From IMG/VR virus record IMGVR_UViG_3300030943_000026, positions 1 through 52,189 of that record: a DNA stretch of 52,189 nucleotides. One strand, written 5' to 3'. This document shows positions 1 through 52,077 of this stretch, piece by piece. The position numbers and the translations under genes were made by a program. Each line of letters starts with the position of its first letter. The stretch's first letter is position 1. The notes under the pieces were generated by a model. The model was not told where the DNA came from, made no database searches, and saw nothing but the letters and a program-made list of their open reading frames with translations. Source of the stretch: a virus.

Positions 1-20
1 CTCTCGGCCAGAAGGGCTGA
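1..20 (+). CDS. 3' tail of a small gene entering from the left edge, probably ubiquitin-like
   Basis: The frame beginning at base 3 reads Leu-Gly-Gln-Lys-Gly and then TGA at 18-20. An intrinsic terminator follows at once, so this is the natural end of a transcription unit. A C-terminal glycine suits a ubiquitin-like modifier that is activated by an E1 enzyme, and E2-like, JAB and E1-like genes come next. The frame is compatible with the gene that runs off the right edge (52078-52189): that gene ends with one unpaired base and this one starts with two. Joining the edges directly would give only 43 residues, so about 25-35 codons may be missing. Function is inferred from context and the glycine tail. 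Confidence 0.45.
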
Positions 21-92: not shown

Positions 93-980
93 GTGACCCA
101 ACGGATCGTAATCCAAGGCGATCTCGTCCAGTTGGTTGACGAGACAATCACCAAGTCCATCGCCCTCAGCGAATGGCTCCCCTCCATCGAGAGCCGCCCC
201 CCGATGCATCTGCCAGTCCTGCCGCGTGCAACTCGCGGGATCTGGTACGACCCGTCCGCCATGATCTCCCAGAAGCTGGTCATCCTCATGGAGATGGAAC
301 CCCAGACAATCACGATGGACATGGCCAGTCGGCAGTACCGTCTGGCCATCCCGTGGACGCGGTTCGTCTTCACCTGTAGCACGGTCGGGAACGTCCCCAA
401 CACCCTGAACTGGCGGATGGACGACTACAAGATCTTCTGGAGCAAACTGCGGTACACCGATGCTACCAAGGAGGACATGATCCCCGCCCTGCTCCCGAAC
501 GTCTACCGGGACGGCAGGATCTGCTTCGGATCGACCGGCGTCAACGGGAACATGACCCTCGCGGACCGCCTCGACGCCACGGTCAACCGGTTCTACTCCT
601 CCGTGTTCAACCGCGACCTCGACATCCGGTTCCCTTCGGGCACCTGCTCGACGTGGCGTCGCTGGGAGACGGCCTCCGCACGAGACCCGATGGTCTGGAT
701 GAACTGGCCCGAACTCGCAGACGGCGACACCATCTACGATCACTACTCGTGGCAGATGCTCACCGCCCACGAGGCCCTCACACCGAACACGCGGCTGGAG
801 ACGGTCGTCGCTCCTGACGGCATCCCGCCGCTCGCCATCGGTGCAACCTTCGGCCACGCCGCCGAGTGGTGGAACGCGCTGACCCCGGTGCAGCGCACCC
901 GCCTGTCAGCAGCCATCGCGAACAACCCGCAAACCCCCGTGACCGAACCTGAAACAGGCGAAGAGGAAGAGGAAGTCTAG
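93..980 (+). CDS. E2-like protein of PRTRC system protein B type
   Basis: The 295-residue product starts at GTG 93 behind a GAGGAA ribosome site. It resembles PRTRC-B, the E2-like partner in bacterial ubiquitin-like systems. Visible features are a central W-Y-D-P segment near residues 51-54, then L-P-N-V-Y and G-R-I-C-F-G-S with Cys144 as the candidate conjugating cysteine, followed by a segment ending F-Y-S-S-V-F. The C-terminus is a run of acidic residues after a Pro/Thr linker. The JAB gene begins 293 bases downstream of its end and the E1-like gene lies within 3 kb, which supports the assignment. An E2-like domain would carry the modifier from E1 to a target. Whether Cys144 is catalytic is inference. 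The tail is longer than in typical plasmid PRTRC-B proteins. Confidence 0.7.
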   Translation: MTQRIVIQGDLVQLVDETITKSIALSEWLPSIESRPPMHLPVLPRATRGIWYDPSAMISQKLVILMEMEPQTITMDMASRQYRLAIPWTRFVFTCSTVGNVPNTLNWRMDDYKIFWSKLRYTDATKEDMIPALLPNVYRDGRICFGSTGVNGNMTLADRLDATVNRFYSSVFNRDLDIRFPSGTCSTWRRWETASARDPMVWMNWPELADGDTIYDHYSWQMLTAHEALTPNTRLETVVAPDGIPPLAIGATFGHAAEWWNALTPVQRTRLSAAIANNPQTPVTEPETGEEEEEV

Positions 981-1276
981 TGGCACTCCCGCAGACCTTC
1001 GACCAACTCGTCAGAACCATCAGGAACACTTGCTACGGACGGGTCATCGTCACTCCCGTCTCCACGCCCGACGCCTACGAGAACTACTTCTCGTCACGGC
1101 AAAGGGGCACATGGGACACCATGATGTGGGGCCTCTACGCCGAGACAAACGGACTCACGCAGGGAGACCCGACTGAACCGGGGAGGCAGTTCGACAGGAC
1201 AGACTTCAACCTCATGCAACACCCCACCCACTACAACCGAGTCACACCAGCCTTCACGAACGGAACACGACGATGA
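980..1276 (+). CDS. small protein of the ubiquitin-like operon, unknown function
   Basis: The product has 98 residues. Its GTG start overlaps the stop codon of the E2-like gene (TAGTG) and its end overlaps the JAB start (ATGA), so the three are probably translationally coupled. The sequence is polar and aromatic, with no signal peptide, membrane segment or zinc motif. It has no di-glycine tail, so it does not look like the modifier itself. Position suggests an accessory or specificity subunit for the flanking E2-like and JAB proteins. I do not recognise the family. Confidence 0.75.
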   Translation: MALPQTFDQLVRTIRNTCYGRVIVTPVSTPDAYENYFSSRQRGTWDTMMWGLYAETNGLTQGDPTEPGRQFDRTDFNLMQHPTHYNRVTPAFTNGTRR

Positions 1277-2469
1277 ACATCTTCTCTGTCCTCGCCGTGA
1301 ACGAAGGCGACGAGGATAACGTCCCCGATCCCGTAGTCCCGTACTACGCGATCTACAAGGAGGGCGTCTTCCTGCACAGGAAGACGCAGATCGGGAACGT
1401 CCTCGTCCGCCAGACCTCCCTCCCGACCAACGCCACACTCGCCAAACTGGGCAACGCCAACGGCGTCTTCCAGTGGACCGGCGAGAAGATCCCCGGGAAG
1501 ATCATTGCGCAAGCAACGGACTTCTTCACCCGGATCTACGATGCCCACGGCACCGAGGCAGAGGTCATCATCACCATGCACAACGACACGGGCGAGTTCC
1601 GCCTGTTCGTTCCCTACCAGCGCGTCTCAGGAACGGGCGTCAAGTCGCTCTTCGATGCGGCGCACATCGACAAGAACTACACGGTCGTGGGGTCCATCCA
1701 CAGCCACTGCAACTTCGGCGCCTTCCACAGCGGCACCGACAGCGCAGACGCTGCGGACATGGACGGCATCCACTTCACCATCGGAATGCTGAAGAGCAAC
1801 CCCCCGCAGATCGTGGCCATGGCGGTCATGAACAAGAAGGAGTTCCACTACTCCGACCCGAACATGGTCGCAGACGTGGTCTTCACCGGAGAAACCGCCC
1901 CCGAGTGGTGGGATCGCTATGTCTTCCCGGGCACCACACCGGACACAAAGCCCAAGGGCATGAAGACCACAACCCAGCACCAGTGGGACGTGTTCAAGGG
2001 AACGATCCCGCAGCACGTCGCCAAAACGCCCACGCCCATCACCACTCCCAAGAACTACGGGCGCTACATGCCCATGGACACCGACTGGGAGAACCCGTGG
2101 GGCGACTACGTCACGCGAATGCTCAACCGCCAGCCGAACCGAGAGCAGCGGAAGCACCCTCACCCGCAGCAGCAAGTAATCCCGTTCCAGCCGACAACCG
2201 AGAGCCGCCTCTTCAACCAGAAGAAGAAGCGGAGCCGAGCAGTCGAGTTCAACCAGACTCCCGAACAACTCGCCATCGACTCCATGATCGATGAGGCCAT
2301 GAAGCAAGACGTGATCGTCGCTTCCGACTGGCTCCTCATCGACGCCGAGGAGATGGACAACATCACAACATGGAGGGAACTCCTCCTCAACAAACTCGAC
2401 ACCATCTGCGACATTCTGGAAATGGTCAACGTCGAGATCACCTACGTGGCCAAGGAGGCTACCGCATGA
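1273..2469 (+). CDS. JAB/MPN (JAMM) metalloprotease, PRTRC system protein A type
   Basis: The 398-residue product carries a complete JAMM zinc motif: His143-x-His145, seven residues, Ser153, two residues, Asp156. JAMM enzymes remove ubiquitin-like modifiers from targets or trim modifier precursors. The domain sits in the first half, after an N-terminal region like that of PRTRC-A, and includes a V-V-G-S-I strand just before the motif. The C-terminal 150 residues are charged and linker-like, ending in an acidic helix. ATGA overlaps at both ends show coupling to its neighbours. With the E2-like and E1-like genes it forms a conjugation and deconjugation set. Family call is firm; the substrate is unknown. 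Confidence 0.88.
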   Translation: MNIFSVLAVNEGDEDNVPDPVVPYYAIYKEGVFLHRKTQIGNVLVRQTSLPTNATLAKLGNANGVFQWTGEKIPGKIIAQATDFFTRIYDAHGTEAEVIITMHNDTGEFRLFVPYQRVSGTGVKSLFDAAHIDKNYTVVGSIHSHCNFGAFHSGTDSADAADMDGIHFTIGMLKSNPPQIVAMAVMNKKEFHYSDPNMVADVVFTGETAPEWWDRYVFPGTTPDTKPKGMKTTTQHQWDVFKGTIPQHVAKTPTPITTPKNYGRYMPMDTDWENPWGDYVTRMLNRQPNREQRKHPHPQQQVIPFQPTTESRLFNQKKKRSRAVEFNQTPEQLAIDSMIDEAMKQDVIVASDWLLIDAEEMDNITTWRELLLNKLDTICDILEMVNVEITYVAKEATA

Positions 2470-2921
2470 CCCGCGCAGCAACCCCCAACACCCCAGAGAC
2501 GATCAACGAGATGGTCAGGACACTGACCAACATCACGTCGTCCGAGGACAACGCACGAGGTCTTGTGGCCCCTGTCATCAGGGCCATGGGACACATCCTG
2601 TTCGCTCTGGCGGCTCTCAGCGAGACACCGGTCACGATGACAGAAGAAGAGATCCTCGATGAACTTCGCGCCGCGTCGGCTCATCTCACTGGCACCCTCA
2701 CACACAACCCCGAGTACCTCTCGGCCCCCACAGCGGGTGCAGTCACCAACTTCGCCGCCGCCGTCCGTCTCACATCTGAAGCCGCTGGCTCTTGGACCCC
2801 GGAACAGCGGATCTCAGCACTCGGCACCGTCGCAACCGCAGGAGCAGGACTCGCAACCCTCCTCGACCGTGATCTCGCCGGAATCTCCGTCCGCGACTCG
2901 TACCCCGGTAACTCGCTGTAA
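2466..2921 (+). CDS. helical protein of unknown function in the ubiquitin-like operon
   Basis: The product has 151 residues from ATG 2466, which overlaps the JAB stop. It is rich in Ala, Thr and Leu and appears mostly helical, with no cysteines and no clear membrane segment. One stretch, G-H-I-L-F-A-L-A-A-L, is amphipathic rather than transmembrane. I do not recognise it. Coupling to the JAB gene suggests a role with that protein. Confidence 0.75.
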   Translation: MTRAATPNTPETINEMVRTLTNITSSEDNARGLVAPVIRAMGHILFALAALSETPVTMTEEEILDELRAASAHLTGTLTHNPEYLSAPTAGAVTNFAAAVRLTSEAAGSWTPEQRISALGTVATAGAGLATLLDRDLAGISVRDSYPGNSL

Positions 2922-3027
2922 ACTCCGGTTCAAGGAACACGAGACCACCCACAACACTCTATGCCTTCAGTCCATCAAGGAGATTGAAAGCCTAGAGCAA
3001 GCAGGGTGGTCTCGTGAGGACTACGAG

Positions 3028-3279
3028 ATGCAGCGGCTGGTCTACGCCGACTGGAACGAAGGGGTCTGGACACACCGATGGACATTCAGCGACAACGCCA
3101 ATTGCGCCCACTGTCACTCGGACGCCCTGTGCATAACGGCAGGCAAGACGTCGTTCTGCAAAACATGCCTAACCCAGTTCCCGAACGTCCCGTGGCACCC
3201 GACAGGGGAGATCAGGGCGAAGTGGGCAGTCTTCCTGAACCACAGCCTAACGTGCCTGATCCACGGACAAGGCACATGA
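3028..3279 (+). CDS. small cysteine-rich zinc-binding protein
   Basis: The product has 83 residues from ATG 3028, chosen because GAGGA lies 7 bases upstream; the open frame extends further left without a good start. The middle holds C-A-H-C, a further Cys, then C-K-T-C, enough for a zinc ribbon or a small treble-clef fold. The last codons overlap the next ATG (3276). In a ubiquitin-like operon such a domain could be an adaptor or E3-like element, but nothing in the sequence proves that. Confidence 0.65.
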   Translation: MQRLVYADWNEGVWTHRWTFSDNANCAHCHSDALCITAGKTSFCKTCLTQFPNVPWHPTGEIRAKWAVFLNHSLTCLIHGQGT

Positions 3280-3446
3280 TTCGATCCTTGTTTCAAGGAC
3301 CAAAATCCATCAATGACCTCGTCCAGTCCGAGAAACTGAACCCGACAGCCGTCATCAACATCATCCAAGGAGCCCGTTCCATGGGGTACAAGATCGTTGC
3401 CCACCCGGGGCCTCCCACCACCTTCACCTTTGAGCCACCCACATGA
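3276..3446 (+). CDS. small winged-helix-like protein
   Basis: The product has 56 residues and starts by ATGA overlap with the preceding gene. The pattern S-I-N-D-L-V followed by a second helix, N-P-T-A-V-I-N-I-I, and a turn into a beta strand (G-Y-K-I-V-A) fits a minimal winged helix. A DNA-binding or regulatory role is plausible but inferred. The end overlaps the next ATG at 3443. Confidence 0.65.
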   Translation: MIRSLFQGPKSINDLVQSEKLNPTAVINIIQGARSMGYKIVAHPGPPTTFTFEPPT

Positions 3447-3679
3447 ACCTCCACTCCATCGAAACGACCCCCGTCCTGATCAAGAAGGTCCAGAACGAGT
3501 TCGACCGGCTCAGCGCAAACACCTACCAGATCTTCAGGAGTGAAGGCCGCTGGGTGTACACCAACAACAACTACCCGGACGACCCGCCTGTCTGGCTGTC
3601 CGACAGCGACGCTGCCTACTGGGGTCATGAATACGACACCCGAGCAGCAAGAGCAGAACGGTTGCTGGAAGCAGGATGA
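3443..3679 (+). CDS. hypothetical small protein
   Basis: The product has 78 residues and starts by ATGA overlap. It opens M-N-L-H-S-I, close to the opening of the next gene (M-N-L-H-Q-I) and of those at 4835 and 43726, so this short N-terminal motif recurs in the genome. It is aromatic and acidic, soluble, without recognisable motifs. Its end overlaps the next start by four bases. Confidence 0.7.
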   Translation: MNLHSIETTPVLIKKVQNEFDRLSANTYQIFRSEGRWVYTNNNYPDDPPVWLSDSDAAYWGHEYDTRAARAERLLEAG

Positions 3680-3900
3680 ACCTCCACCAGATCCAAGCCA
3701 ACAAACCACTCACAGATCTGGACAAGGCCATCAGAGCGATCCATCACGCTTTCCCCGGATCGTACACATTCGGTCAACCACTGGAAAACGGGGATGTCAT
3801 CTGGGCAACCGAGGAAAACTCAGGCCGTCTCGGTCTCAATTCCATCCACATGTGGGCACGGACCTACGACAACACTAATAGGGAACTCGACCATGAATAA
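3676..3900 (+). CDS. hypothetical small protein
   Basis: The product has 74 residues, starts by ATGA overlap and overlaps the E1-like gene by 8 bases. It begins M-N-L-H-Q-I, like its upstream neighbour. The rest alternates helix and short strands, with no cysteines or membrane segment. Function unknown; its tight coupling to the E1-like gene suggests a linked role. Confidence 0.7.
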   Translation: MNLHQIQANKPLTDLDKAIRAIHHAFPGSYTFGQPLENGDVIWATEENSGRLGLNSIHMWARTYDNTNRELDHE

Positions 3901-4621
3901 CTACATGATGATCGGCGCGGGCGGAACCGGGACTCACCTGCTCCACCCGCTGATCGCCTACCTCGCCTCACACCACACGGAAGGAGACTGGCTCCTCCAT
4001 GTCATGGACGGCGACACCGTCGAGACCAAAAACCTTGAACGCCAGTTGTTCACCGACCGTCAGGTTACGATGAATAAAGCGGAGGCAGCCGTCGAGCCCT
4101 TCGACAGCGGCCACGTCCGCGCCATCCCGAACTACCTGTCCGAGGAGAACATCGAGCGGATGATCATGGACGGCGATACCGTCCTGATCTGTGCCGACAA
4201 CTTCACGGTGCGCAAGCGGATCGAAGACCGCTGCAAGACTCTCGCCAACGTCACCGTCATCAACGGCGGCAACGAGAAGTTTTCAGGCTCCGTTCAGTTG
4301 TGGGTCCGAGCCATGGGCGAGGACGTGACACCCCGCATGTCCTACCTCCACCCCGAGATCACCGCCGAAGGCCCCGACCGCGCAGAGATGACATGCGCGC
4401 AGGCCGCAGCACTCCCCGGAGGCGAACAGACCATCGTCGCGAACCTCCAGAGCGCATCGTGGATGCTCACGGCTCTCTGGCGTGCCCACGCCCTCCTCTT
4501 CATCCACAGTGTCGGACAGGAACCGAGCCCCCACACGTGGACCGAACTCCAGTTCGACGCATTCACCGGGACCGTCGAACACATCGACCAGCGGATGTCC
4601 TCCCATTGGAGGGCTGCATGA
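3893..4621 (+). CDS. ThiF/E1-like adenylating enzyme, PRTRC ThiF type
   Basis: The 242-residue product starts at ATG 3893 and opens directly with the ATP-binding loop G8-A-G-G-T-G13. Further E1 hallmarks are Asp39 and Asp41 at the end of strand 2, then N47, R50 and Q51 (N-L-E-R-Q), and Lys62. A cysteine at 168 (E-M-T-C-A-Q) sits where PRTRC ThiF proteins carry one. The family adenylates the C-terminus of a ubiquitin-like protein and passes it on as a thioester. It is a compact single-domain E1, as in PRTRC loci. The next gene overlaps by ATGA. The call is firm; its modifier is most likely the gene split across the window edges. Confidence 0.88.
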   Translation: MNNYMMIGAGGTGTHLLHPLIAYLASHHTEGDWLLHVMDGDTVETKNLERQLFTDRQVTMNKAEAAVEPFDSGHVRAIPNYLSEENIERMIMDGDTVLICADNFTVRKRIEDRCKTLANVTVINGGNEKFSGSVQLWVRAMGEDVTPRMSYLHPEITAEGPDRAEMTCAQAAALPGGEQTIVANLQSASWMLTALWRAHALLFIHSVGQEPSPHTWTELQFDAFTGTVEHIDQRMSSHWRAA

Positions 4622-26221: not shown

Positions 26222-29200
26222 TCAGACCGTGTGAATCCTGACCCACGCCGCGCTCATGCCACGGTGGGGGACCAACTTCCGGTTGACACCGTGCGACCGC
26301 TGGGGACTGTGGTCCCACTCGATAGGCTTCGGCGGGGCCTTCGTGTGCTTCGCGTTCTCCGCGTAGGACGCCCAGATCGCAGCGAGCCACTTCTGGAACG
26401 AAGGGATCATGTCAGGGTGTGCGCTGAGCGAGGCATAGACAGACTTCAGGGTCGCCTGACCCGCAGCCTCCTTGGAGAAGACCTCCGGGTACTTCTCGCG
26501 GAAGACACGGCGCAACCAAGCCTCCTCCTTCGGAATAGCCTGATAGGCAGTCGTGATCATGACCCGACGATATGCAGCAGACGTGCCCTGTGTCTTCAGC
26601 CACTTCGCGAACTGGGGGTTGGCGCGCAGATACTCAGCCCTACTCGCGTCATCAGCCGTGAAGTAGTCAGCCAATTGGCCGACCATCTTCACATTGTTCC
26701 TCAGTTTCTGCTCAGGGTGCTTCGCGTAGTACCGGTCACGGAATGCCTTGGGCATCGAATTGAAGTACGCCTTGGCGCCCTCCTCATCGCCCTTCTTCAG
26801 GAGACCGACCCACTTGCCCATGGCACGAGAGTACGGACTGGACCCGGTACCGCCACCACTGCCGCCCCCGTTCTTCATCTTGGAGTCAGGGTGGTTCAGG
26901 AAGTAGCGGTACTTCACCCACTCAGGCATCTTCGCGAAGAACGCTGCACCACCAGCGTAGTCACGATGGTTGTAGTGATCGATCCAGCGGCCCATCCAGT
27001 TCCCGTACTCCTGATTGTCAAGCATCTTCTTGGCCGTCAGCCCATGCTTCTTCATGTACCGGGCCTGCGAAGTCGGGGTCATACTCACGAAGTACCGGTA
27101 CGCTGCATCGAAGTGACCCTTCTCGATCAACTTCCCGTACTTCCCGATCTCCTTGATGTACGCGTCGTTGGCTGCCCACTCCTCACGCTTGCCGATGTTA
27201 CGCCGAAAATACTCATCGCGAAGGAACAGGTTCGCCGGGTCCTTCAACTGCTTGACGAACGAAGCCCCGAACGCGTCAGCCTTGTCAGCCTTCTTGGCAT
27301 CGGCAACAGCCTTCTTGGCGTTGGCAATCACGACCGACATACCATCACCGTACTTCTGGTCGCGCTCCATCGTCGCCCTCTTTTCAAGATCGGCATGGTC
27401 CCAGCGCCACTTGTTGAAGTCGGGGAAGATGGAGAGACGAGGCACGAGATTCTGACGGAGAGTAGGCATGCTTCCGGTCGTGGACCGAAGTTTCGCCCCC
27501 ACAGGCAGGGTCGGGAAGTCGGTCGTGGGATCGAAGTACGTGACCGCCTCATCGTTCGTCAACGTGTTCATCTCCAGTTGGTTCATCTGGTACAACTGGT
27601 CAGACAGAGAGTAGTCGTTCTTCTGCCGCGCAGCCTCGATAGCGATCCCACGAGTACCAACACGGTCGAGGACATCGAACCACTCCTGCTCCGTGTCCGA
27701 CCAGATCTGCTCCAGACTGGACCGGGACTTCAGGAGATCAGCACGAACCTGCGGGAACATCTTCAGGAACGCTTCCTGCGTCTTGACATACTGCGCCTGC
27801 GCCGTGATGAACTCGGCCTCCGTCTTGAAACCATCGGGTTCGGGCCTCGGGATCTGGTAGTACCGGCTGCGCAGAGCGTCCGTCTGCCACTGGGTGATCT
27901 GGGACTGGATCTTCCAGAGGTCAGACGTCATCGCAGTGTACTCGTACATCTCAGGATGGGAGCGGTAGAACGCGAACCGCTCCAGATTCGCCTGAGCCTT
28001 GGCATCCTCGTACCCCTGAGACCCGATCTGCTGCTGCCACATCCGGTGGTCATTCCTGCGCTCCATCTCACGCAAGGCGTCCAGATCCTGATAGATCTTC
28101 TGCTTGTAGACCTCGGTCTGCGAGTCAAGCCACTTGGTGGACGGAGGCGGGGGAGGCGTGTTAGTCAGGGGGAGAGAGTCGCGCGTCTCGCGCTTGTTAT
28201 CCGCCCAGTAGGCAAGCAGATCCTGCCCGCTCGGGGTCTTCAGGAACCGGTCGGCGGCTGCGGGATTCGCCTTCTTCATCGCCCAGTAAGCAAGGTTCAA
28301 CCCGGCCCCACGGTCCTGAATCTTGGAACCGCCGAAGAAGAGCATCTTCCCCATCAGATCGCCAAACCCTTCAAGCGTGAACTTCACGCCGCCAGCGTCA
28401 AGGTCGTTGACAAGGGGCTCAACCAGATCGGCCAGCCAGAAGGAGCCGGACAACTTGGCCTCGCCACCCCACGGGGCCTCGTAGGGAAGGATAACCTTCT
28501 TGTACCGACCAGTGGGCTGCCCGGTCACGATGTCAATGATCGGCTCCCAAGCCGTCCTGCCGCCAAGGCCGAACATGTTCAACGCGGCCATCGCAGCGTT
28601 CTGCTCATTCGCGCTGACCAGCCGGACCCAGAGGGACGTGATCTGGCCAATCGTCTTGGTCCCCTTCTGGAGATCGTAGAGCGGTTGCACACCACGAGAC
28701 ATGTCGGACAGGCTACCGAAGTCGAAGAACGTCCGGGGTGCCCACGGGAGTTCGATCATCCGGGCGCGGACATCGTCCAGCCACTCGTCAGGATGCTTGA
28801 TCGCCCACTGCTCCCGGTTGTGCTGCTCAATGGCGTTCCCGATCTGGTTGAACCAGTTGTAAAGGAACGGGTGGGAGACCAGTTCGCCAAGGAACATCAC
28901 GCGGTTCTTGACCTGATAAGAAGCGAACGGAACAATCATGTTGAAGAACCGCTCCAGAGGACCATCGCCAACGGTGGGCCACATCCGCTGGACTTCGGCA
29001 CCGATGAACTTACACGCAGCGGCATCGGCCAGACCCGGGTCCTTCAGGCGGCGCAGGGCATCAGCGAAGACACGGTCATACATGTGCTGGGCAAGCCGCA
29101 ACTTCGCAGCCGTCTCAACCACACCTGCAATCTCAGCGGAGATCTCATACACGCCAACCACGCCATCAAGGGTACGGGCGAGGTTGTCGGCCATCAAGGC

Positions 29201-32200
29201 TGGACCCTCGACAGCCTGTAGGACACGCTGAGTACCGTGGACACCACCACGACTGATCAACTGGGTCTGGTCCCCGAACCCGAAGTGCATCGGGGTCTTG
29301 GCAGCAGCCTTCTCAGAAACCACCGAAGTCCTGAACGACCGGGTCGTGAACGCAGCCCACGACTCCTTGATAACCGAGTCGATGACGTTCGACGCAGCGA
29401 ACGCCGGGTTGGACATGACCATCAGACGGACCATCGTGGCGCGCTTCCGAAGCAGATCGCCAACCATGTCCTTGTCACGACGGAGCCAGAGAGGATTCTC
29501 CAGCACATCGTTCACCACGTCGGTGCAGATCCGCCAGTATTCCTCATTCGTGATCGTCTTGCCAGCCATGGCCACGTCATCGAAGTACCGACCAAGGGAC
29601 TTGTTGATCATCCCTCCAAGCAGATCGACAGCCTCGGGGTCCTGCGGAAGGACGTGGTCAAGGGACTTGGCAGTCCGACCAAGGACGTACTTCTTCAGTT
29701 CCTCGCGGTGCATCAGCCAAGGCATCGCGATCAGGTTCCCCTCGGAGTCCTTCACGATGTCCCCGTACCGCTCCATCACGTACTTCCGCATGGCGGGAAG
29801 GTCGCGCATGGCGTGGATGTGAAGAGCCTCGTTACCATTCGCCAGCGCGCTGATCAGTTCATCGCGGGAAAGCAGACCAGTCTCGATCCGTGCATCGAAG
29901 TTCTCATTGTACCCGCCCCACTTACGAAGGGCAGCAGAGTAGATCGACTCAAAGTGCAGCGCATCGTAATACTTCTGCCCGGGAAGGAACAGACTCGGAT
30001 TAGCCCACTCGGGAGCCCGGCCATACTCGGCAATGAAGTGGTCGTACTCCTCGGTGATGCTCCAAGACGTGCCACCAGCGTCAACCACGGCAGAGGTACG
30101 AGGCGTCCACATCCCGTTCTCAACGAAGAACTCGCGCATTCCCGCTCGGTTCTCAAAAGGCGGCGTCTGGCCCTCGACAGAGGACAGGGCCTTCGCCACG
30201 GCTTCCTTGTCCCTGATGTCGGGCACGCCAAGGTAGTGTTCAACAGCCCTCTCTAGTGTGTTCCGCTGGTAGATCGAGATCTTGCGCTTCTGGCCAAGGA
30301 CGATATTCCGACTCCCGTACAGATCCTCAAACTGGCGAAGGATGTCCTCGTGGGTGTTTCCGTACGCATCCCCACGCGCCAGTTCCTCGTACTGCTTCCT
30401 AGCCTCGATCTTGGCCATCTCAGCGCGCCGACGAAGGAAGATCTTCTTGTACGTCTCGCCCCAGACCTTGTCCCACACCTTCGGCGCGGTTGTCTTGGAG
30501 TCAAGCCCCAGCCGGGCCATTTCGGCCATCGCCTCGGTGCTACTCTCACGGAGCAACTTCGCACTGGCCTTCTTGGCGACAAAACCCGAACGGAGAATGT
30601 GCGCCTCATTGTATGCGTGGAGATCAACGCCCTCACGCTTCAGAACCTCGGCCTTCGCAAGGATGACCCGGAGATCCTGCTCCAACAACTCCGCACGGGG
30701 GTCACCGGGGACATCTCCGCGCGCATGGACAGTCTGGGTCCACGTATCCGCTCGTTCGTTCCTGCCACCGGGACCATTGATCGCATCAGAGACCAGTTGG
30801 TTGATCCGCTCATACTCTTCAGCGTCGAAGTGGTCCCCACGGACCATCAAACGATCACTCATGTACTGCTTCAGACTGTACGGAACCTCGCCAGCCTTCC
30901 TACGGGAGTACCCGGAAACAAGAGACAGGCGATGATCCATCTTCTGCTTCAGCAGATCGAGCGCCTTCAGGAACTCGGGATTGTGGACAGCACTTTCGAA
31001 CTCGGACTCACCAGTGATCAAGATCAAGGGCGTCACCCGACCGGCCCACGACACGGGCAGGCCGAACGTCCGCATCTGCGCCTCGGTCATCGGCTGGTCG
31101 AACAGGGCATCAAGACGCTTCCCCTGCCGCTTGTAGAGGGAAGAGACCTCACCAGTCATCTCGACAGCACCCAGCGCCGGGTCAACCTCGGCACGGTGGA
31201 GGATCGAGTGCGCCCTGCGCCCCTGCTCATTGATCACGCCACGATAGGAGACGACAAACGGGGCGATACGCTTCGGGGCAAACGACGCAGTGACCCGCGC
31301 CTCGTTGATCGAGTAGGACACGCGGGCAAAGGACCCACGTGCGGCAGTCCCAATGAACGTCCCGTGTCCCTTGCGGACATCGATGACCTTCAACGCACGG
31401 GCCAGATCACGCAGACGATCCCGAAGGGCAACACGCTCTGCGCTCCCATGCTCCGTCTTCCTGATCGCCGCCGCCGCCTTCGCCGTCTCACGCCTCAGCC
31501 AGACCTCTTCACTCTCCTGAGCGATGGTCTCGAACATTGTCGCCTCAGACTCGACACGAACATCCATCCGGCTCGGGATGACCGGCATCGGGACGGGAGA
31601 CCCCCCAAGAGCCTCATTCAACTGAGCGGCAATCGCATCCTCGGCAGGGGTGGGGGGGATGACGGACGCAGGCTTCACAGCCCCACCGGATTCACGCGTC
31701 CCGCCCTTGGCATCCGTTGCCTTCAGGTTCTCGTCAACCATCTTCTGCTCGGCAGCCGCACGCTCAGGAGTCCCCGCAGGTGTGGCATTCGCCGCATCGT
31801 TGGCTGCCTGAATCGGGTTGACCTCGACCTTCGGAGCAACCTCGTCACGCATGGCCGCAGCGCGGTCATCGTACTTCTTGGTCACGTCCGCAATCTCAGC
31901 AACAAGAGCGTCAATCTGCGTCCGAGTGATGTTGGCCTCTTCCGGCGTCAAGGGGCGCTTCGGAAGATCCTTGGACTCAGCCTTGATCTTGCCCTCGGTT
32001 GCAGGGAACGCGATCTCAGACGTCTTACCGGCACCACCACCAACAGGTGCATCAACGATATCAGTCGCCAACTGCTTCTCGATATCGGCAATCTCGGCAT
32101 CGTTCTTATGCTTCAAAAGCAACCCCGTCTGAGTCACGGCGCTGCGAGCGTCATACTCGGTTTGACCCATGCGCCGAAGCGCATCAATAGCCAACTCCTC

Positions 32201-35200
32201 ATCGTGTGCCTTTTGCTTCTTCAATTCAGTCAGACGGCGATTGAGAACTTCCTGCAACCGCTTGTTCCGCTGAATAGATCTCTGCTGCGGGACAGGGGGA
32301 AGAGAAAGATCGTCAACCCCATCTTTCAACTGAACACGGAGATCCCTGATCTTCTCAACTGTCTTCTCTCGGAAGACACGAAGATCAGCCGTCTGCTTGA
32401 CGATCTGCGCCTCAACCTCACGCTGGGCCTCGGTCTGCTCAGCAACAGCAGCAGCGTGGCTCCGCTGCCCCTCAGTGGTCAGGCGCGTAGCAGCAGCAGC
32501 GGCCTCATCACGATCACGGTTCGTCACCGCCGTCGTGATCCTGTCCAACTGGGCAAGAGACTCAGGAGACCCCTCCTCGTGCAAGGCCGCAATCATCGCA
32601 TCTTTCTGCCGGGCAGCACGGGCGAGTTGCTTCTTCGTCAAGGCATGAGCCTCATACAACCCCTGATCCCGCATGTACTGGCCAAGACGGGACGCAAGCA
32701 GAGTCTCGCCCTGCGCGGACGCAAGACTATTCAGCAACTTCTTCCCGTCACGCAACTTCAGGACATCGGCCACGATTCCCCTCATCGCCTGCTCGCCCTC
32801 ATAGGACAGACCGGAGACCGCGTGGGTCGTCCGAACAAGGCCATGGAGAATCCCCATCAGGTGACTCGTCGCAGCACGCTCGGCCTCGTACTGCTTCAGG
32901 AGCGACCGAAGCGGCTCCGACCGCCCCTCGACAAACGCACGCCGCTCTACCGGATCAGACAACACGTTCAACCGCATGAGCGCAGGACCCATATCAGGAT
33001 ACACGCGGCGCTTGGCGGCAAGAGGAATACCGTCACTCGTAATGGCCCGGGCCGTCCGGGCGATCTGAGTACGGGAAGCGTGCTGGGTGACAAGCATCCC
33101 ACCACCCTCGATCCGCGAGACACCATCGACCACTTCCTTCATCTGCGCAAGATCGGGGTTCGGAATCGAGACCCGCTCGCGAACAACCTTCCCGTTGATC
33201 TTGACGGACTTGCCATTGATCTTCTTGATGCGGGTCACAAGAAGAACATCAGGAACAACCACGACAGGAACATCACCAGCCTCGGGGAACTCACCACGCT
33301 TAGCAAGACGAGAACCGGGAAGATCGCGGATCGTGTCAGAAGCCCACGGAGACGCAGTAAGCCGTGCTGCGAGGTCAGACCGCTGGGTCGTCAGGACTTC
33401 GATCTGGGCGCTCGCCCGTTCACGCGCCTGAAGAAGCGTCTCCTCGGTGTAGTTCGCGGCAGTGCTGTCACCACGGGAATCATTCGCCCGCGTCCAGTCC
33501 ATGAGAGCCGCGTCATCCTCTTCGCCACGCTCAATGGCCAACTTGGACTCATCTTCCAGACGCTTCGCAAGTTCCGTCAACTTGCTCAGGGCAAGATGGG
33601 CTTCAGCCTGATCCACAGTAGGAGCGATACCCGCAGCAACCCAGAAGTCCTGCACGACGGCACCAACCTCACCAGCCACACGGGCACGCTCGGCTTCAAG
33701 GACTTCGACCATCGTCTTGTTGATATTGGCATACCGCTGGGACTCAAAGATCGAACCAACAACCTCGCGACCAAGGACACCATACCCGGCACGATCCATA
33801 TGGTTGATGTATCGAAGGGCAAACTCCTGCCACTGCTGACCCTTCTGGACGGAAGAACGCTGAAGGGCGAACAGGAGCGAGAGCGTGTGAAGCCCCGGAT
33901 TGTCATGGGTGACAGCACCAGTCCAGTATGCCTTGAAGAACCGATCCCGAAGGAACGTATCGTACTCAGGAGACATGCCGGTGCGGATGTTCTTATACGC
34001 ATCAGACCCCATCATGGCTTCAAACTTGACCAGAGCAGAGTCATACGCACGGCGCTCAAACCCCTTCGGAAGCGTCTTCCTCCGGGGGTTCTTCAGGAAC
34101 CACGCGTTCTTGATCTGCTCAACCTGATCGAAAGCGAACTCCCGGCGAATCTTCTCAAACTCATTGAGCATCTCGGGATGATTCCCAAGACTCGTGCGAA
34201 CCATGTAGATACTCAGATCATGCTCACGAAGAGCAAACATCTGGCGTCGGGACAACTCACCGTACCGCTCAGCGATGTAGTCAAGAACCTGCGTGGCCGC
34301 GCGAATCGACGTACCGGGGTCCTCAAAACGACCAGAACCGATCTCCAGAATCCTAGAGAGGGCATGGTAGTCGTTCCACTGATACGGAGCGGGGGCGAAC
34401 AGGCGGGACTTCGTCTTCGGGATCTGGTCAAGAAGGTTCGAATAACCAAACCGGGTCGGCGTCTCGCGGGCAAACGGTCCATACGGGATCATAGCAAGCG
34501 CCATGTTGGGATGGAGCCCGCCAGTGAGAATTGCCGAATTCATGAACCCAGCCTCAACTACCTCAAAGTCGAGGTTGGGGGTGTTCATCCACGGAAGCAT
34601 GGCGCGCTTCTCCATCACCTGCCACATGTGCAGGTAAGGATTCATCATCTGCTGGTCCTTCTTCAGCAAGCGGCGCACCATCACGCCATACGCCTTCAAC
34701 TTCGTCATATCGCCATCGAGAAGCGTCATCGAGAAGAGGTTGAACAGCGCCTGACCATTCTCCCTGAACTCCTTGGGACCGGAGACACCCTGAAGCCAGA
34801 GATGCGTGAAGTATCGCTCCAGCCGACGAGGCTCCATGGAACGGCGAAGGGTCGTGTCGAATGACCCAAGGGCATCGCCAGCGGCGCGCTGCTCAGGACT
34901 AGACCCCAGAAGCGTGAACGTCGCGTAGTAGTCGTCAAACGCCTTCTGGTTCAACGTGCCATCAGGATTGAGAAGATCCTGCGTCATCACGTGGCCGAAC
35001 TCTAGGAGCGTGTCCCCGGGCTCATACCCACGAGTCACATCCAGAGTACCCATCCCACGGTGAAGATCGGCGTCAAGAGTCTCTTCGGCCCGCTTCAGGA
35101 TGACGGGGGTCAGATGCTTGTCAATCCAATCGTCCAACTGCTTCCGCGTAATCTTGCCGTCGATGAAGCGCTTCTGCTGGGTAGAAAACTCCCACTTCAG

Positions 35201-38200
35201 GGATTCCAGCGCGCGGAAGTCATTCCTGACCGCAATACCTTCAGCGGGAGTCCGGGCACCACCGAGACGCTCAACCGTAGCCTGATCAGGAATGAACTGG
35301 TGGGTGGACTTCGGGCCATTCGGGATCTCATACCCACTCCCGTAGAACACCCCATCTTCGCCAACGCCGCCCTTGCCAAGGGCATCGCTCCACCCCTGTT
35401 CACGTTCAACGCCTTTGAGGGGAGACATCGCGCCCTGCTGCTCAGCGCGAACACGGGCAAACGAACGAGACGCCTCCTCGCGGATCGCACGACGAGCCGA
35501 ATCGCGAACACCAGCATTCGGACGCATATCCCGTTCGAGATTCGCCAGTTCGGCCTTCAGGTGCGCAATCTCCTTGGGGTTCAGATAGTGAAGACCACCA
35601 GAACCAGCCATGCCGGGGGCAAGCGTAGAGGGATCAGAAACCCACCCACGCGCAAGAACATCCTTGATCTGCTCCATCCGGCCAGCCTTGGCCGCGTTGG
35701 GCATGTGCGTGGCGTTCAGGTCGGCAGCAAGTCGCTTTCCGCGCGGAGTCGCAAAGAACTCCGTCCCCTTGCCAAGGGCAAACTCAAACTCCTCAGACCC
35801 GCGACCAACCTCGACGGGATAAATCTCGACCGAAGAGTGTCGTCCGAACACCTTGTAGACACGACCAAGGAGCGTGTGAGAGGACTCCGGGTTGGGAGGA
35901 ATAACAGCCGCAGCAGACCGGGGCAGATTCGCTTCCTTGACAGCCGTCTCACCAAACGAACTATAGACAATCGGAGACCCATCCGCCGCAACGGGGGCTG
36001 GATTGTGAAGCGCCGCAGCACGCGCCAGAGCGTCGGAGTCTTGAATCGCCTCGACCGTCCTCTCGTGGACGACCGGGACTTCCTTGGCCTTCTCCATCAC
36101 CACGTTCGCGGCCTCAACCCGGGCAGCAGCCTCCTCTTCCTTCTTCAGGCGAACCGCAGCACGCTCAGCACGAGCCTTCGCGTTCTTCCGTTCACGCTTG
36201 GCCTCGGCCTTCGCAATCTTCTCGTCTTCGGCTTCGACCAAGATCCTCGCCCGCTCGGCCTCGTCAACAGCGGTCTTGGCCTCCTCGACCTTCTTGGCCG
36301 CAGCAGCGATCTCCTCGGTCCGGTCAGGGACCTCGACGCCCTCCTTGGCAGCAGCAGCCTCGGCCTTCTGGAGATCGATAGCCGCCTTATGCTCAGCCTC
36401 GCGCTCAGCCATCAACTTCTCATAGGAAGTCATATGCTGGTCACGAGACAGTTTCTCGCGAAGAGCATTGTGCGCGTCAACAGCCTTCATCCTGAAGTCG
36501 GCAAGAGCCTTGTCGGCCTCGTACTTGGCGAGGATCTTCTCCTGCTCGGCAGCAAAGCCGGGGAACTCCGTCTTTGTCCTCTTGAACATCGCAGCCATGG
36601 CCTCTTCGGTCATGGTCATGGCGTTCCTGCCCGAAGCCGTATTCGGGTTGATCCCCGACTCACGCAGGAACTTCGCAATCGCCTCTTCCTGCTTGTCGGG
36701 CTCGATCTTCAGGAGCGCACCAAGGAACGCCTCGCGAATCAGGGCAGGATCGACACCCTCGGCCAACTTGGATGCAGCCTCGCCAACGACCTTCTCCCAT
36801 CGCAGTTCGGGCTCCGTGACCCGCTGGAAGGACGAAAGACCCTTCCACGCCTTGGACAACAGGTTCATATCCTTGGACTGGCTCATGATCGAATCGGCAT
36901 ACTTCAGACGGGCAAGCCACGTTGTGGCCTTCAGGGGGATGGCATTCGTCGGATCAAGGATCATGGAGTACGCAAGGTTGAGGGCAATCGAGTCAGGGGT
37001 CGCAACAGCCTGCCCGTACTGGTTCAGGGCCTCAAAGACCATCATCGGATCACCACGACCGTCATTTGCCCAGATACCCTTCTCGTAGAACTTCTGGGCG
37101 AACGAGGCAGCCTCAGTCTGGATGCGCTTAGCCTCATCGGGCGTACGACCAGTCGTGATGCCAAAACCACCCGGATACTGCTTGTTGGCATCGCCCCACG
37201 CCTGTCCTTGGGGAGTCGTGAAGAACTGACGCCCAACCTCGTAGACGGCCTCTTCAAGGGCATCCTTGGTCATGCGGTTCGTGATCTCATCGGCAGTCAT
37301 GTTTCCAAGGCCCTGATACGCCTCCAGACGCGAGACATACCAACCACCCTTCTTGTCTCTCAGCAACTGAGACTGGGTCTCAATAACCTGCTCCTGCTGC
37401 TTAGACGGAAGATCGCGGAACTGGATCGTCCCACCGGACATGAGCAACTCAGCAGGCTGGCCCGCAATAGCAGACGCGACAACCTTCCCGCTCGTGCCGA
37501 AGATGCCGGGTCCGGCCCCAATCATGTTAGCGAGACCCTGAATCGGAGGAATCGCCCCGGGGACCTTTTCAAGAAGGTTCGGCGCATCAACACCCATCTT
37601 CCGGTAGAAACTCTGGTACGCCTGCTCGCGAGCGGCAAGGTACTTCGCGCGGACAGGATCGGTCGAGATAGCGCCGTACTGCATCCCAGACATGTTCTCA
37701 CGGTCAAACCCACCGGTCGGAGAGACAAACCCGGTCTGCTGGTTGAAAAGCCGCCCATACTTGGCATCCCAGAGGGACATCGCGGCATCCACGATCCTCT
37801 GCTGATCGGGGCGACTGTTGACGCCCGTCACACCGGACATCTTCTGTGCCTGATCGAAGAACGACTGCATCTCGGCACTATCGACATTCGCCGCACTATT
37901 GGCAATCTGCGAGATCACGCCAATCGGGGCACCGGCAATCGAGATCATCTGCTTCTGCGTCGAGAGAAGGAACTGCTGCTGCTGCTTGGCGATGTACTTC
38001 TGACGCTGGAAATCGACTTCCTCGTCAGGAGTCCGCTTGTGGACGAACCCATTCCTGATCTCGATCCCGGTCTGAGTGGCGGGGATCGTGTCGCGGACGG
38101 AGTCATACATGTACCGCTCGCCCGTCTGCCAGTTGACGATGGCAGATCGGGCCTCGTCGGTCTCCTTGTTCTTCTGAAGGAACGAAACATTCTGCTTGTA

Positions 38201-39073
38201 GGCCGTATTCCCCTGATTCCAGAGATACGCTCGCTGGGCAAGCGCAATAGCATCGAACGTCTTCTGAGTCTTCGACGCAGACCCATCAGACCCCTGAAGG
38301 GCTGGAGTACCCGCAACACGGTTCCATTCGGCCATCATCGCTCGATATTCAGGATCAGCGAAGAACGCGTTCCACGCATCCACCTGTTCCTTCGTCTCAG
38401 CCCGGTATTTCCCGTCCTTGCCCTTCAACTTGCCGAATTGCTTGATGAACCGCTTGTCAGCGGCCTCGACATCACTCCGAAGGGCATCCGCACGCTTCGA
38501 ATACTGCTCCTGAAGATCGATCAGGTATTGGGAGTCCACGGACGTAGGAACGTCACCAGCGGCCTCCTGACGGGCACGCGCCTCTGCGATCAACCGTTCA
38601 AGCGTACTAAGGTCCGAAGACACATCTTTGGACTTCTTCTTGGGATCGTACTTGCGATGCTTGACCGCCTCCAAGGTCGCACGGTCCGCACCGGCCTGAT
38701 GGATCTTGGAGATCAGGGAAACCACGTCAGGACTCGTCCCAAACTTCTTCGCCGGTTCAGGACGCCCGTCGAGGATCGCCATCTGCTGGGCCTGACGCTT
38801 GCGGAGCAGATCCCACAGCGCCTTGTTGGTCCTCGCCTTCGCGGAATCGGCCAACGCCTTCTGGGCCTGCTCCTTCGCAGAAGCCTCCAGCCGCGCCTTC
38901 TGGGCAGGGGTCAGCCCCGCAGGAGTCTGCGGAGGCTGGACAAGCGGAGGCCGATACGTGGACTTTGTGGAAGCGGCTGTGGGAGCAGCAGGATCTTCAA
39001 CCCAGCGCTGCTTCTTGACCGTCTTCCCGGTATCCCCGTCGATGGCGAGATAGGTCTGCCAGTGTCCGGCCAC
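26222..39073 (-). CDS. giant 4283-residue polyvalent-type protein, probable internal virion protein
   Basis: One unbroken frame of 12.85 kb, about a quarter of the window, starts at GTG 39073, 3 bases after the portal stop. Position between portal and scaffold suggests a protein packaged in the head or ejected with the DNA. Two charged regions that could form coiled coils lie near residues 885-1000 and 2140-2420. Around residue 3220 a segment N-P-A-F-A-A-S-N-V-I-D-S resembles large polyvalent-protein domain LPD38; about 170 residues later is P-F-A-S-Y-Q-V-K-N-R. Residues about 3980-4150 carry degenerate 40-45-residue helical repeats with M-P and R-Y-Y/F endings. I found no protease, lysozyme or polymerase site. 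The long plus-strand frames opposite it are shadows. Confidence 0.85.
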   Translation of the reverse strand: MAGHWQTYLAIDGDTGKTVKKQRWVEDPAAPTAASTKSTYRPPLVQPPQTPAGLTPAQKARLEASAKEQAQKALADSAKARTNKALWDLLRKRQAQQMAILDGRPEPAKKFGTSPDVVSLISKIHQAGADRATLEAVKHRKYDPKKKSKDVSSDLSTLERLIAEARARQEAAGDVPTSVDSQYLIDLQEQYSKRADALRSDVEAADKRFIKQFGKLKGKDGKYRAETKEQVDAWNAFFADPEYRAMMAEWNRVAGTPALQGSDGSASKTQKTFDAIALAQRAYLWNQGNTAYKQNVSFLQKNKETDEARSAIVNWQTGERYMYDSVRDTIPATQTGIEIRNGFVHKRTPDEEVDFQRQKYIAKQQQQFLLSTQKQMISIAGAPIGVISQIANSAANVDSAEMQSFFDQAQKMSGVTGVNSRPDQQRIVDAAMSLWDAKYGRLFNQQTGFVSPTGGFDRENMSGMQYGAISTDPVRAKYLAAREQAYQSFYRKMGVDAPNLLEKVPGAIPPIQGLANMIGAGPGIFGTSGKVVASAIAGQPAELLMSGGTIQFRDLPSKQQEQVIETQSQLLRDKKGGWYVSRLEAYQGLGNMTADEITNRMTKDALEEAVYEVGRQFFTTPQGQAWGDANKQYPGGFGITTGRTPDEAKRIQTEAASFAQKFYEKGIWANDGRGDPMMVFEALNQYGQAVATPDSIALNLAYSMILDPTNAIPLKATTWLARLKYADSIMSQSKDMNLLSKAWKGLSSFQRVTEPELRWEKVVGEAASKLAEGVDPALIREAFLGALLKIEPDKQEEAIAKFLRESGINPNTASGRNAMTMTEEAMAAMFKRTKTEFPGFAAEQEKILAKYEADKALADFRMKAVDAHNALREKLSRDQHMTSYEKLMAEREAEHKAAIDLQKAEAAAAKEGVEVPDRTEEIAAAAKKVEEAKTAVDEAERARILVEAEDEKIAKAEAKRERKNAKARAERAAVRLKKEEEAAARVEAANVVMEKAKEVPVVHERTVEAIQDSDALARAAALHNPAPVAADGSPIVYSSFGETAVKEANLPRSAAAVIPPNPESSHTLLGRVYKVFGRHSSVEIYPVEVGRGSEEFEFALGKGTEFFATPRGKRLAADLNATHMPNAAKAGRMEQIKDVLARGWVSDPSTLAPGMAGSGGLHYLNPKEIAHLKAELANLERDMRPNAGVRDSARRAIREEASRSFARVRAEQQGAMSPLKGVEREQGWSDALGKGGVGEDGVFYGSGYEIPNGPKSTHQFIPDQATVERLGGARTPAEGIAVRNDFRALESLKWEFSTQQKRFIDGKITRKQLDDWIDKHLTPVILKRAEETLDADLHRGMGTLDVTRGYEPGDTLLEFGHVMTQDLLNPDGTLNQKAFDDYYATFTLLGSSPEQRAAGDALGSFDTTLRRSMEPRRLERYFTHLWLQGVSGPKEFRENGQALFNLFSMTLLDGDMTKLKAYGVMVRRLLKKDQQMMNPYLHMWQVMEKRAMLPWMNTPNLDFEVVEAGFMNSAILTGGLHPNMALAMIPYGPFARETPTRFGYSNLLDQIPKTKSRLFAPAPYQWNDYHALSRILEIGSGRFEDPGTSIRAATQVLDYIAERYGELSRRQMFALREHDLSIYMVRTSLGNHPEMLNEFEKIRREFAFDQVEQIKNAWFLKNPRRKTLPKGFERRAYDSALVKFEAMMGSDAYKNIRTGMSPEYDTFLRDRFFKAYWTGAVTHDNPGLHTLSLLFALQRSSVQKGQQWQEFALRYINHMDRAGYGVLGREVVGSIFESQRYANINKTMVEVLEAERARVAGEVGAVVQDFWVAAGIAPTVDQAEAHLALSKLTELAKRLEDESKLAIERGEEDDAALMDWTRANDSRGDSTAANYTEETLLQARERASAQIEVLTTQRSDLAARLTASPWASDTIRDLPGSRLAKRGEFPEAGDVPVVVVPDVLLVTRIKKINGKSVKINGKVVRERVSIPNPDLAQMKEVVDGVSRIEGGGMLVTQHASRTQIARTARAITSDGIPLAAKRRVYPDMGPALMRLNVLSDPVERRAFVEGRSEPLRSLLKQYEAERAATSHLMGILHGLVRTTHAVSGLSYEGEQAMRGIVADVLKLRDGKKLLNSLASAQGETLLASRLGQYMRDQGLYEAHALTKKQLARAARQKDAMIAALHEEGSPESLAQLDRITTAVTNRDRDEAAAAATRLTTEGQRSHAAAVAEQTEAQREVEAQIVKQTADLRVFREKTVEKIRDLRVQLKDGVDDLSLPPVPQQRSIQRNKRLQEVLNRRLTELKKQKAHDEELAIDALRRMGQTEYDARSAVTQTGLLLKHKNDAEIADIEKQLATDIVDAPVGGGAGKTSEIAFPATEGKIKAESKDLPKRPLTPEEANITRTQIDALVAEIADVTKKYDDRAAAMRDEVAPKVEVNPIQAANDAANATPAGTPERAAAEQKMVDENLKATDAKGGTRESGGAVKPASVIPPTPAEDAIAAQLNEALGGSPVPMPVIPSRMDVRVESEATMFETIAQESEEVWLRRETAKAAAAIRKTEHGSAERVALRDRLRDLARALKVIDVRKGHGTFIGTAARGSFARVSYSINEARVTASFAPKRIAPFVVSYRGVINEQGRRAHSILHRAEVDPALGAVEMTGEVSSLYKRQGKRLDALFDQPMTEAQMRTFGLPVSWAGRVTPLILITGESEFESAVHNPEFLKALDLLKQKMDHRLSLVSGYSRRKAGEVPYSLKQYMSDRLMVRGDHFDAEEYERINQLVSDAINGPGGRNERADTWTQTVHARGDVPGDPRAELLEQDLRVILAKAEVLKREGVDLHAYNEAHILRSGFVAKKASAKLLRESSTEAMAEMARLGLDSKTTAPKVWDKVWGETYKKIFLRRRAEMAKIEARKQYEELARGDAYGNTHEDILRQFEDLYGSRNIVLGQKRKISIYQRNTLERAVEHYLGVPDIRDKEAVAKALSSVEGQTPPFENRAGMREFFVENGMWTPRTSAVVDAGGTSWSITEEYDHFIAEYGRAPEWANPSLFLPGQKYYDALHFESIYSAALRKWGGYNENFDARIETGLLSRDELISALANGNEALHIHAMRDLPAMRKYVMERYGDIVKDSEGNLIAMPWLMHREELKKYVLGRTAKSLDHVLPQDPEAVDLLGGMINKSLGRYFDDVAMAGKTITNEEYWRICTDVVNDVLENPLWLRRDKDMVGDLLRKRATMVRLMVMSNPAFAASNVIDSVIKESWAAFTTRSFRTSVVSEKAAAKTPMHFGFGDQTQLISRGGVHGTQRVLQAVEGPALMADNLARTLDGVVGVYEISAEIAGVVETAAKLRLAQHMYDRVFADALRRLKDPGLADAAACKFIGAEVQRMWPTVGDGPLERFFNMIVPFASYQVKNRVMFLGELVSHPFLYNWFNQIGNAIEQHNREQWAIKHPDEWLDDVRARMIELPWAPRTFFDFGSLSDMSRGVQPLYDLQKGTKTIGQITSLWVRLVSANEQNAAMAALNMFGLGGRTAWEPIIDIVTGQPTGRYKKVILPYEAPWGGEAKLSGSFWLADLVEPLVNDLDAGGVKFTLEGFGDLMGKMLFFGGSKIQDRGAGLNLAYWAMKKANPAAADRFLKTPSGQDLLAYWADNKRETRDSLPLTNTPPPPPSTKWLDSQTEVYKQKIYQDLDALREMERRNDHRMWQQQIGSQGYEDAKAQANLERFAFYRSHPEMYEYTAMTSDLWKIQSQITQWQTDALRSRYYQIPRPEPDGFKTEAEFITAQAQYVKTQEAFLKMFPQVRADLLKSRSSLEQIWSDTEQEWFDVLDRVGTRGIAIEAARQKNDYSLSDQLYQMNQLEMNTLTNDEAVTYFDPTTDFPTLPVGAKLRSTTGSMPTLRQNLVPRLSIFPDFNKWRWDHADLEKRATMERDQKYGDGMSVVIANAKKAVADAKKADKADAFGASFVKQLKDPANLFLRDEYFRRNIGKREEWAANDAYIKEIGKYGKLIEKGHFDAAYRYFVSMTPTSQARYMKKHGLTAKKMLDNQEYGNWMGRWIDHYNHRDYAGGAAFFAKMPEWVKYRYFLNHPDSKMKNGGGSGGGTGSSPYSRAMGKWVGLLKKGDEEGAKAYFNSMPKAFRDRYYAKHPEQKLRNNVKMVGQLADYFTADDASRAEYLRANPQFAKWLKTQGTSAAYRRVMITTAYQAIPKEEAWLRRVFREKYPEVFSKEAAGQATLKSVYASLSAHPDMIPSFQKWLAAIWASYAENAKHTKAPPKPIEWDHSPQRSHGVNRKLVPHRGMSAAWVRIHTV

Positions 39074-51773: not shown

Positions 51774-51925
51774 AATTGATCAGAAGAGGTTGGACCTCGC
51801 CCGACCCGGGGAGACTCCCCTCACATCGCTCACCTTTTGAGTATGCGATGGAGGGACTCCACGTCATCCGACGAGCCGAATCTTCAAAACCGACTGGGGA
51901 ACCAACCCCGTCCGTCTAACCGGTA

Positions 51926-52008
51926 GGCTAGACCAAATGGTCTAGCCCACCGCCAACAACAGTAACTGGACCCCTGCAATCAGGATTCACGCTCTGTTGT
52001 TGGCGGTG
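51926..52008. repeat. hairpin followed by a 15-bp inverted repeat
   Basis: GGCTAGACC-aaat-GGTCTAGCC (51926-51947) is followed by CACCGCCAACAACAG (51948-51962), matched perfectly by its complement at 51994-52008 around a 31-base loop that itself contains CCTG-caat-CAGG. The arm includes CCAACAAC, similar to the TCAACAACC in the arm of the 44397 inverted repeat. Confidence 0.8.
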
Positions 52009-52077
52009 CGCACCAGCCTAGGCGACACCAACTGACGTCCGACCAGTAGCGCGGACAGCACTCTCAGGAGGAACCCG

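Follow-up and report, generated by a model that had tools for sequence, protein, structure and literature searches.

The virus contig analysed here (IMG/VR record IMGVR_UViG_3300030943_000026; 52,189 bases, hereafter the window) carries genes for an E2-like protein, a JAB peptidase and an E1-like enzyme, together with a gene for a small ubiquitin-like modifier. It is probable (about 80%) that with these four parts the phage encodes a self-contained pathway of ubiquitin-like conjugation and deconjugation. This reading is based on homology, gene order, predicted folds, and the conserved catalytic residues and modifier tail. The original prediction had proposed a ubiquitin-type module in this phage operon. 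The modifier gene supports this proposal and adds weight to it, as do about a hundred related viral loci in which all four parts recur.

The predicted components

All three enzyme genes of the original prediction are present on the + strand with the catalytic residues named there (Table 1). The E2-like protein just missed the curated cut-off of 25 for Pfam Prok-E2_D (23.3 bits, E = 6e-5). Its candidate Cys144 is invariant among 42 aligned homologues, as are N136 and G146. The label PRTRC-B, which had been given to this protein, did not hold: the score against NCBIfam PRTRC_B was 14 bits, far below the cut-off of 131.5, and indicates homology, not membership. The AlphaFold model has a mean predicted local distance difference test (pLDDT) score of 73, with a core of about 90, and shows a four-strand meander (residues 59–117), then the Cys144 loop, then helices. 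The best PDB match in Foldseek was an E2, yeast Ubc2 (probability 0.82, E = 0.03, weak), followed by Ube2g2 (0.63) and Rad6. The model also matched ME3_136 of Acinetobacter phage ME3 in the viral structure library, a protein already assigned as an E2 by its motif, an assignment that also draws on this structure match. An E2 fold is likely; the original prediction would have been refuted by the lack of any structural E2 match, and a weak one was found. Searching PDB sequences with the E2 profile turned up no E2, and direct tblastn against phage genomes gave no match. When the two phage E2 types were compared by profile, only the Cys loop showed similarity (probability 0.2%).

The JAB/JAMM metal site is complete (Glu plus HxHx7SxxD), in agreement with the prediction, and E95 is the candidate general base. 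The protein scored 29 bits against Prok-JAB, over the cut-off of 25, and 34 bits against PRTRC_A (cut-off 101.8). The nearest match of the JAB profile was the deubiquitinase Rpn11 (E = 0.006). The E1-like protein scored 70.6 bits against PF00899, and its ATG lies within a longer open reading frame (ORF) starting at 3794. Its GAGGTG, N-x-x-R-Q and Lys62 features are as predicted, and the residues G8xG10G11xG13, N47xxR50Q51, K62, D39, D41, D102 and C168 are invariant.

The modifier gene is split by the window ends. It was located by reading the overlapping IMG/VR contig IMGVR_UViG_3300031918_000108 (L002), not by family search; the Prok_Ub (PF14454) search gave no match in the window or in L002. 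L002 shares 5,386 bases with the window start (0 differences) and 8,641 bases with the window end (2 differences), and 87 bases found in L002 and absent from the window bridge positions 52189 and 1. Because L002 overlaps both ends and joins them with these 87 bases, the window amounts to an essentially complete genome, circularly permuted and about 52.28 kb long. The original prediction had mentioned a likely modifier gene nearby and left it unnamed; the actual gene spans the contig ends and stops just before the E2 gene.

The 72-residue modifier, with the 87-base bridge included, reads MAGTNTLISGPTRLTGQTLTGSTVAEVRARFADALNIPAGASVTVNGVSVADSQVLVDGEEIIFAKALGQKG. Its gene has the highest third-codon-position guanine-plus-cytosine content among the module genes and a strong ribosome site. 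The AlphaFold model (pLDDT 82) showed a beta-grasp with a flexible tail, and the top PDB matches in Foldseek were archaeal ubiquitin, ubiquitin, a molybdopterin-synthase chain and NEDD8, all with probability 1.00 (E from 2e-3 to 1e-2 for the ubiquitins and NEDD8). According to this model, the modifier has the ubiquitin (beta-grasp) fold and a flexible, Gly-terminated tail. In the nearest viruses (L014–L018, L028, L058, L060 and L061) its homologues lie directly 3′ of E1 and end in ...PAGRKG or ...GKKGC; G59, F64, G69, K71 and G72 are invariant.

Leave-one-out profiles, built solely from other viruses, plasmids and genomes, were searched against 902 ORFs. They found E2 with E = 2.9e-16, JAB with E = 1.5e-41 and E1 with E = 1.9e-47, the next-best ORF having E > 1 in each case, and the modifier with E = 3.3e-9 (runner-up 2.1).

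Other ORFs were rejected as the modifier. The 98-residue ORF between E2 and JAB and the small ORFs have no homologues. The ORF at 3443–3679 (78 residues) was the sole Gly-ended candidate among these, but it lacks a KG tail as well as homologues. Upstream of the modifier gene, the gene-free stretch 51921–52011 (L002 8373–8463) contains two strong inverted repeats, one with 15-bp arms and a 2-base loop and the other with 18-bp arms 31 bases apart. They are possibly an operator or a terminator.

Table 1. Features of the module in the window and in the overlapping contig L002.
Feature	Position	Strand	Remarks
Modifier gene, 5′ part	52078–52189	+	Residues 1–37 of 72; AGGAGG Shine-Dalgarno before ATG
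Modifier gene, 3′ end	1–20	+	...LGQKG, then TGA
Modifier gene, whole	L002 8530–8748		72 codons; split by window ends
Intrinsic terminator between modifier and E2 genes	27–62 (L002 8755–8790)	+	Perfect stem of 14 bp with a loop of 8 bases; T run reaching about base 69
E2-like conjugating enzyme, Prok-E2_D type	93–980	+	295 residues; GTG start; Cys144, the candidate catalytic residue, lies in PNVYRDGRIC; acidic tail disordered
98-residue protein between E2 and JAB	980–1276	+	No homologue found; module membership unproven
JAB/JAMM peptidase	1273–2469	+	398 residues; H143, H145, S153, D156 (HxHx7Sx2D); E95
Five small coupled ORFs between JAB and E1	2466–3900	+	2466–2921, ~2917–3279, 3276–3446, 3443–3679, 3676–3900; no homologues found
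E1-like (ThiF-fold) activating enzyme	3893–4621	+	242 residues; GAGGTG, NLERQ, K62, candidate Cys168; no rhodanese

Related loci and known systems

Viral contig scans gave 140 viral loci after removal of contigs found twice, several near-identical contigs remaining. The modifier, E2, JAB and E1 were all present in 105 of them, a proportion that refers to loci having JAB or E1. JAB or E1 served as the query in collecting the loci, so that E2 and modifier co-occur in them independently of the search. The single-protein viral scans reached only L002. The main gene orders were E2-JAB-E1-modifier-E1′ (53 loci) and modifier-E2-JAB-E1 (36 loci), and the module is scattered sporadically over very different phages. 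Nearly all viral modifiers end in xKG, and the tail of some continues past the Gly by one to a few residues. Ubiquitin and SUMO precursors likewise extend past their Gly.

The same order of E2, JAB and E1 was found in Vibrio phage D69, Salmonella phage Arash, Bacillus phage KLEB27-3 and Acinetobacter phage ME3. Some viral loci carry head-to-tail poly-modifier genes of 2–6 copies. The modifier gene is single in Arash, three-copy in D69 and four-copy in KLEB27-3, where gp199 (L006:712–1416) contains four near-identical modifiers, seen as four Prok_Ub domains over the Pfam cut-off. Five to six copies are encoded by L048:1722–2840 and L082:2598–3704, and in these polyubiquitin-like genes each copy ends in KG. 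The Arash gene gp251c (WGL32702; L004:50–304) is annotated in the wrong frame, and its real product is likely a 66-residue modifier ending in RRTGTKG. In ME3 the JAB gene (L007:2727–5837) breaks off exactly at its catalytic MDIH|SH motif, where an insert, perhaps an intron, carries homing-endonuclease-like ORFs and a tRNA-Met annotation.

In clade I of these loci, the modifier (L014:8903–9376 and homologues) has a Rho_N/SAP-like domain (PF07498, 32 bits) fused to its N-terminus, and the neighbours include genes for RNA polymerase beta′ and SbcC-like proteins. About 45–56 clade-I loci have a second E1-like gene followed by a short protein of about 115–180 residues with an invariant HPN-x8-C (for example L060:9646–10011, L014:10962–11351 and L018:10848–11204; motif sequence, e.g., PHPNANPKNGNFCIP). 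HPN-x8-C is the canonical eukaryotic E2 motif, and such a protein is not present in the window. Its best PDB profile match was ubiquitin-conjugating enzyme E2-21 kDa (5nkz, E = 0.37, weak). Two E1-E2 pairs within one virus, if true, would be remarkable.

The E1 tree placed the window in a well supported clade, the bootstrap being rough, alongside 38 viral loci, a single locus from a metagenome-derived genome and a MoeZ row misplaced by its long branch. Plasmid PRTRC and phages Arash, D69 and KLEB27-3 are on a branch apart from it. The E1 match in MT835529 (L005) was rejected: the gene is of an ordinary bacterial, MoeZ-like kind, and a long-branch effect accounts for its pairing with the window in the tree. 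The E2-JAB-E1 clusters of clostridial genomes (L105–L175; Oscillospiraceae, Lachnospiraceae and other Bacillota) form a clade of their own, mostly without a recognised modifier.

Iyer, Burroughs and Aravind (2006; PMC1779556) described the PRTRC cassette as operon type 6d. The E2, JAB and E1 of the window are homologous to PRTRC_B, PRTRC_A and PRTRC_ThiF; in both systems a small modifier with a C-terminal Gly belongs to the cluster and the relative order is modifier-E2-JAB-E1. The viral E1, E2 and JAB profiles matched PRTRC ThiF, B and A of pMOL28 with E-values of 2.9e-21, 2.7e-9 and 9.6e-13. The order in this plasmid is ParB-E-C-F-B-A-ThiF, of which C-F-B-A-ThiF matches phages Arash and D69. 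Phages of the Arash/D69 type carry an extra protein at the place of PRTRC F, in which no similarity to PRTRC F itself was seen. Unlike PRTRC, the window module lies in a phage genome and in a nearly virus-only E1 clade, and it scored below the cut-offs of PRTRC_A, PRTRC_B and PRTRC_ThiF alike. Its modifier is neither Prok_Ub nor PRTRC_C (PRTRC_C against the window-type profile, E = 0.72), and no match to TIGR03734, TIGR03742 or PF02195 (ParB and PRTRC F) was found in the window record. Judged by sequence, the module is a PRTRC relative and a new variant. It was not filed as PRTRC because ParB and F are lacking, the modifier is not PRTRC_C, the type-6d His is absent and the E1 clade is separate.

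Other bacterial systems share part of this gene set. Bil (BilABCD) also consists of modifier, E2, JAB and E1. BilB has a CEHH motif, with E, H and H at +6, +8 and +13 from the Cys (PMC11354881), whereas the E2 of the window has C144, V150, G152 and A157. BilA has two ubiquitin-like domains, BilD is a larger E1 (two adenylation domains plus a Cys domain), and Bil is a host defence. Type II CBASS Cap2/Cap3 and Bub operons appear to share the E1, E2 and JAB chemistry. Cap2 fuses the E1 and E2 parts, whereas these are separate in the window, where no CD-NTase was seen. The window E1 showed weak E1-domain similarity to Cap2, BubCD and PADLOC E1-E2 models. The tail assembly proteins TAPI and TAPK of lambda/T1 likewise pair a phage ubiquitin-like domain with a JAB peptidase, but they have no E1 or E2, TAPK has NlpC/P60, and they sit in a tail operon.

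No prior description of a complete phage-borne pathway was found in the freely available papers searched. Bacterial ubiquitin-like conjugation has been known chiefly from anti-phage defence and from plasmid cassettes of unassigned function. A full pathway in about 100 viral sequences, with poly-modifiers and precursor tails, would, if true, mean that phages themselves use protein tagging. The role of PRTRC-type systems would become testable in the cultured lytic phages Arash, D69 and KLEB27-3. For the origin of eukaryotic ubiquitin, the simplest relatives would, if true, include viral ones.

Mechanism, targets and alternative readings

We infer the chemical steps, the mutual specificity of the four parts and the targets as follows. 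E1 would adenylate the C-terminal Gly of the modifier and hold the modifier as a thioester, with Cys168 as the candidate residue. The modifier would then pass to Cys144 of E2, which may attach it to target-protein lysines with no recognisable E3 involved, and JAB would take it off again. In related phages, JAB may first trim ...KGC precursors or split tandem poly-modifier chains. The terminator 3′ of the modifier gene may lead to more modifier than enzyme.

We tentatively suggest, at clearly less than even odds, that the targets are DNA replication or transcription proteins of the phage or host, because the module is in an early DNA-metabolism operon and the nearest relatives have the Rho_N/SAP-like modifier fusion near SbcC-like and RNA polymerase genes. 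A broader and doubtful proposal is that many tailed-phage lineages run complete, virus-dedicated ubiquitin-like signalling, polyubiquitin-like genes included, that controls phage replication or transcription proteins. Under this proposal, the clade of the window would possess a nucleic-acid-tethered modifier, two E1 genes and a second, short HPN-x8-C E2-like protein, and the control might resemble that by SUMO and ubiquitin at eukaryotic replication forks.

Several observations speak against a conjugation pathway. The E2 PDB matches (E ≥ 0.03) are not significant and come from a moderate model (pLDDT 73). The usual active-site His of eukaryotic E2s is missing, and so is the type-6d downstream His: no His occurs between Cys144 and residue 217, and FTHPN of PRTRC_B is FNRDL here. 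Five unrelated small genes split the JAB and E1 genes. A minimal E1 of this kind also serves sulfur carriers, and a clade-I modifier scored 20.5 bits against ThiS, below the cut-off.

The last two points fit a modifier that is never conjugated and acts as a ThiS/MoaD-style sulfur carrier for cofactor, nucleotide or RNA modification. The E1 alone scored best with biosynthetic ThiF (62 bits, against 51 bits for PRTRC_ThiF with its cut-off of 144.8), and a radical SAM gene is a neighbour in 50 of the 76 clade-I loci. We nevertheless regard this as improbable. An E2 with an invariant Cys is present throughout, the tandem poly-modifier genes fit conjugation, and no sulfur-acceptor gene was seen nearby. 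The modifier ends in QKG, not GG, and the E1 lacks the paired CxxC zinc motifs of MoeB/ThiF. The possibility of cofactor synthesis had been raised as a challenge to the original prediction; the Rpn11-like JAB and the missing CxxC pairs argue for conjugation, and the slightly better ThiF score of the E1 points the other way.

The same conjugation pathway might act on virion proteins, with the phage tagging or processing capsid or tail parts of its own as they assemble. In Arash, both the E2 and the E1 homologue bear the label 'structural protein', which many other genes share, as would be seen for a virion proteome; the record does not state its basis. In 24 of the 30 clade-II loci, the facing strand carries a terminase gene. 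Ubiquitin-like proteins are tied to phage tails by lambda TAPI/TAPK (PMC1779556) and by Bil (Hoer et al. 2024, as cited in PMC12987554). Virion targets nevertheless seem rather unlikely for the window, where the module belongs to the early operon on the strand opposite to the structural genes. A role in counter-defence or host takeover, with tags placed on immune or regulatory proteins of the host or with JAB stripping tags added by Bil- or CBASS-type systems of the host, also appears unlikely. Bacterial defence shares this chemistry (PMC10097602; PMC11153139), and the sporadic spread of the module across very different phages is consistent with such a role. However, PADLOC gave no match for the E2, JAB or modifier of the window, and stripping needs JAB alone, yet the whole forward pathway is kept.

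Neighbouring genes in the window

Downstream of the module are genes for a PD-(D/E)XK exonuclease, Prim-Pol and endonuclease VII. The module had been said to lead a replication operon; the exonuclease and Prim-Pol genes do follow it, and the modifier gene precedes E2 with a strong terminator between them. The ORF at about 2917–3279 has a Cys-rich, zinc-ribbon-like CxxC...CxxC motif and no clear start codon past the stop of the preceding gene, which may reflect a frameshift or an unusual start. A single ORF of 4283 residues (26222–39073, − strand), very large for a 52-kb phage, lies between the major head protein and the portal/terminase genes. Among named records, the major head protein is closest to those of phages of Bacillus and Streptomyces.

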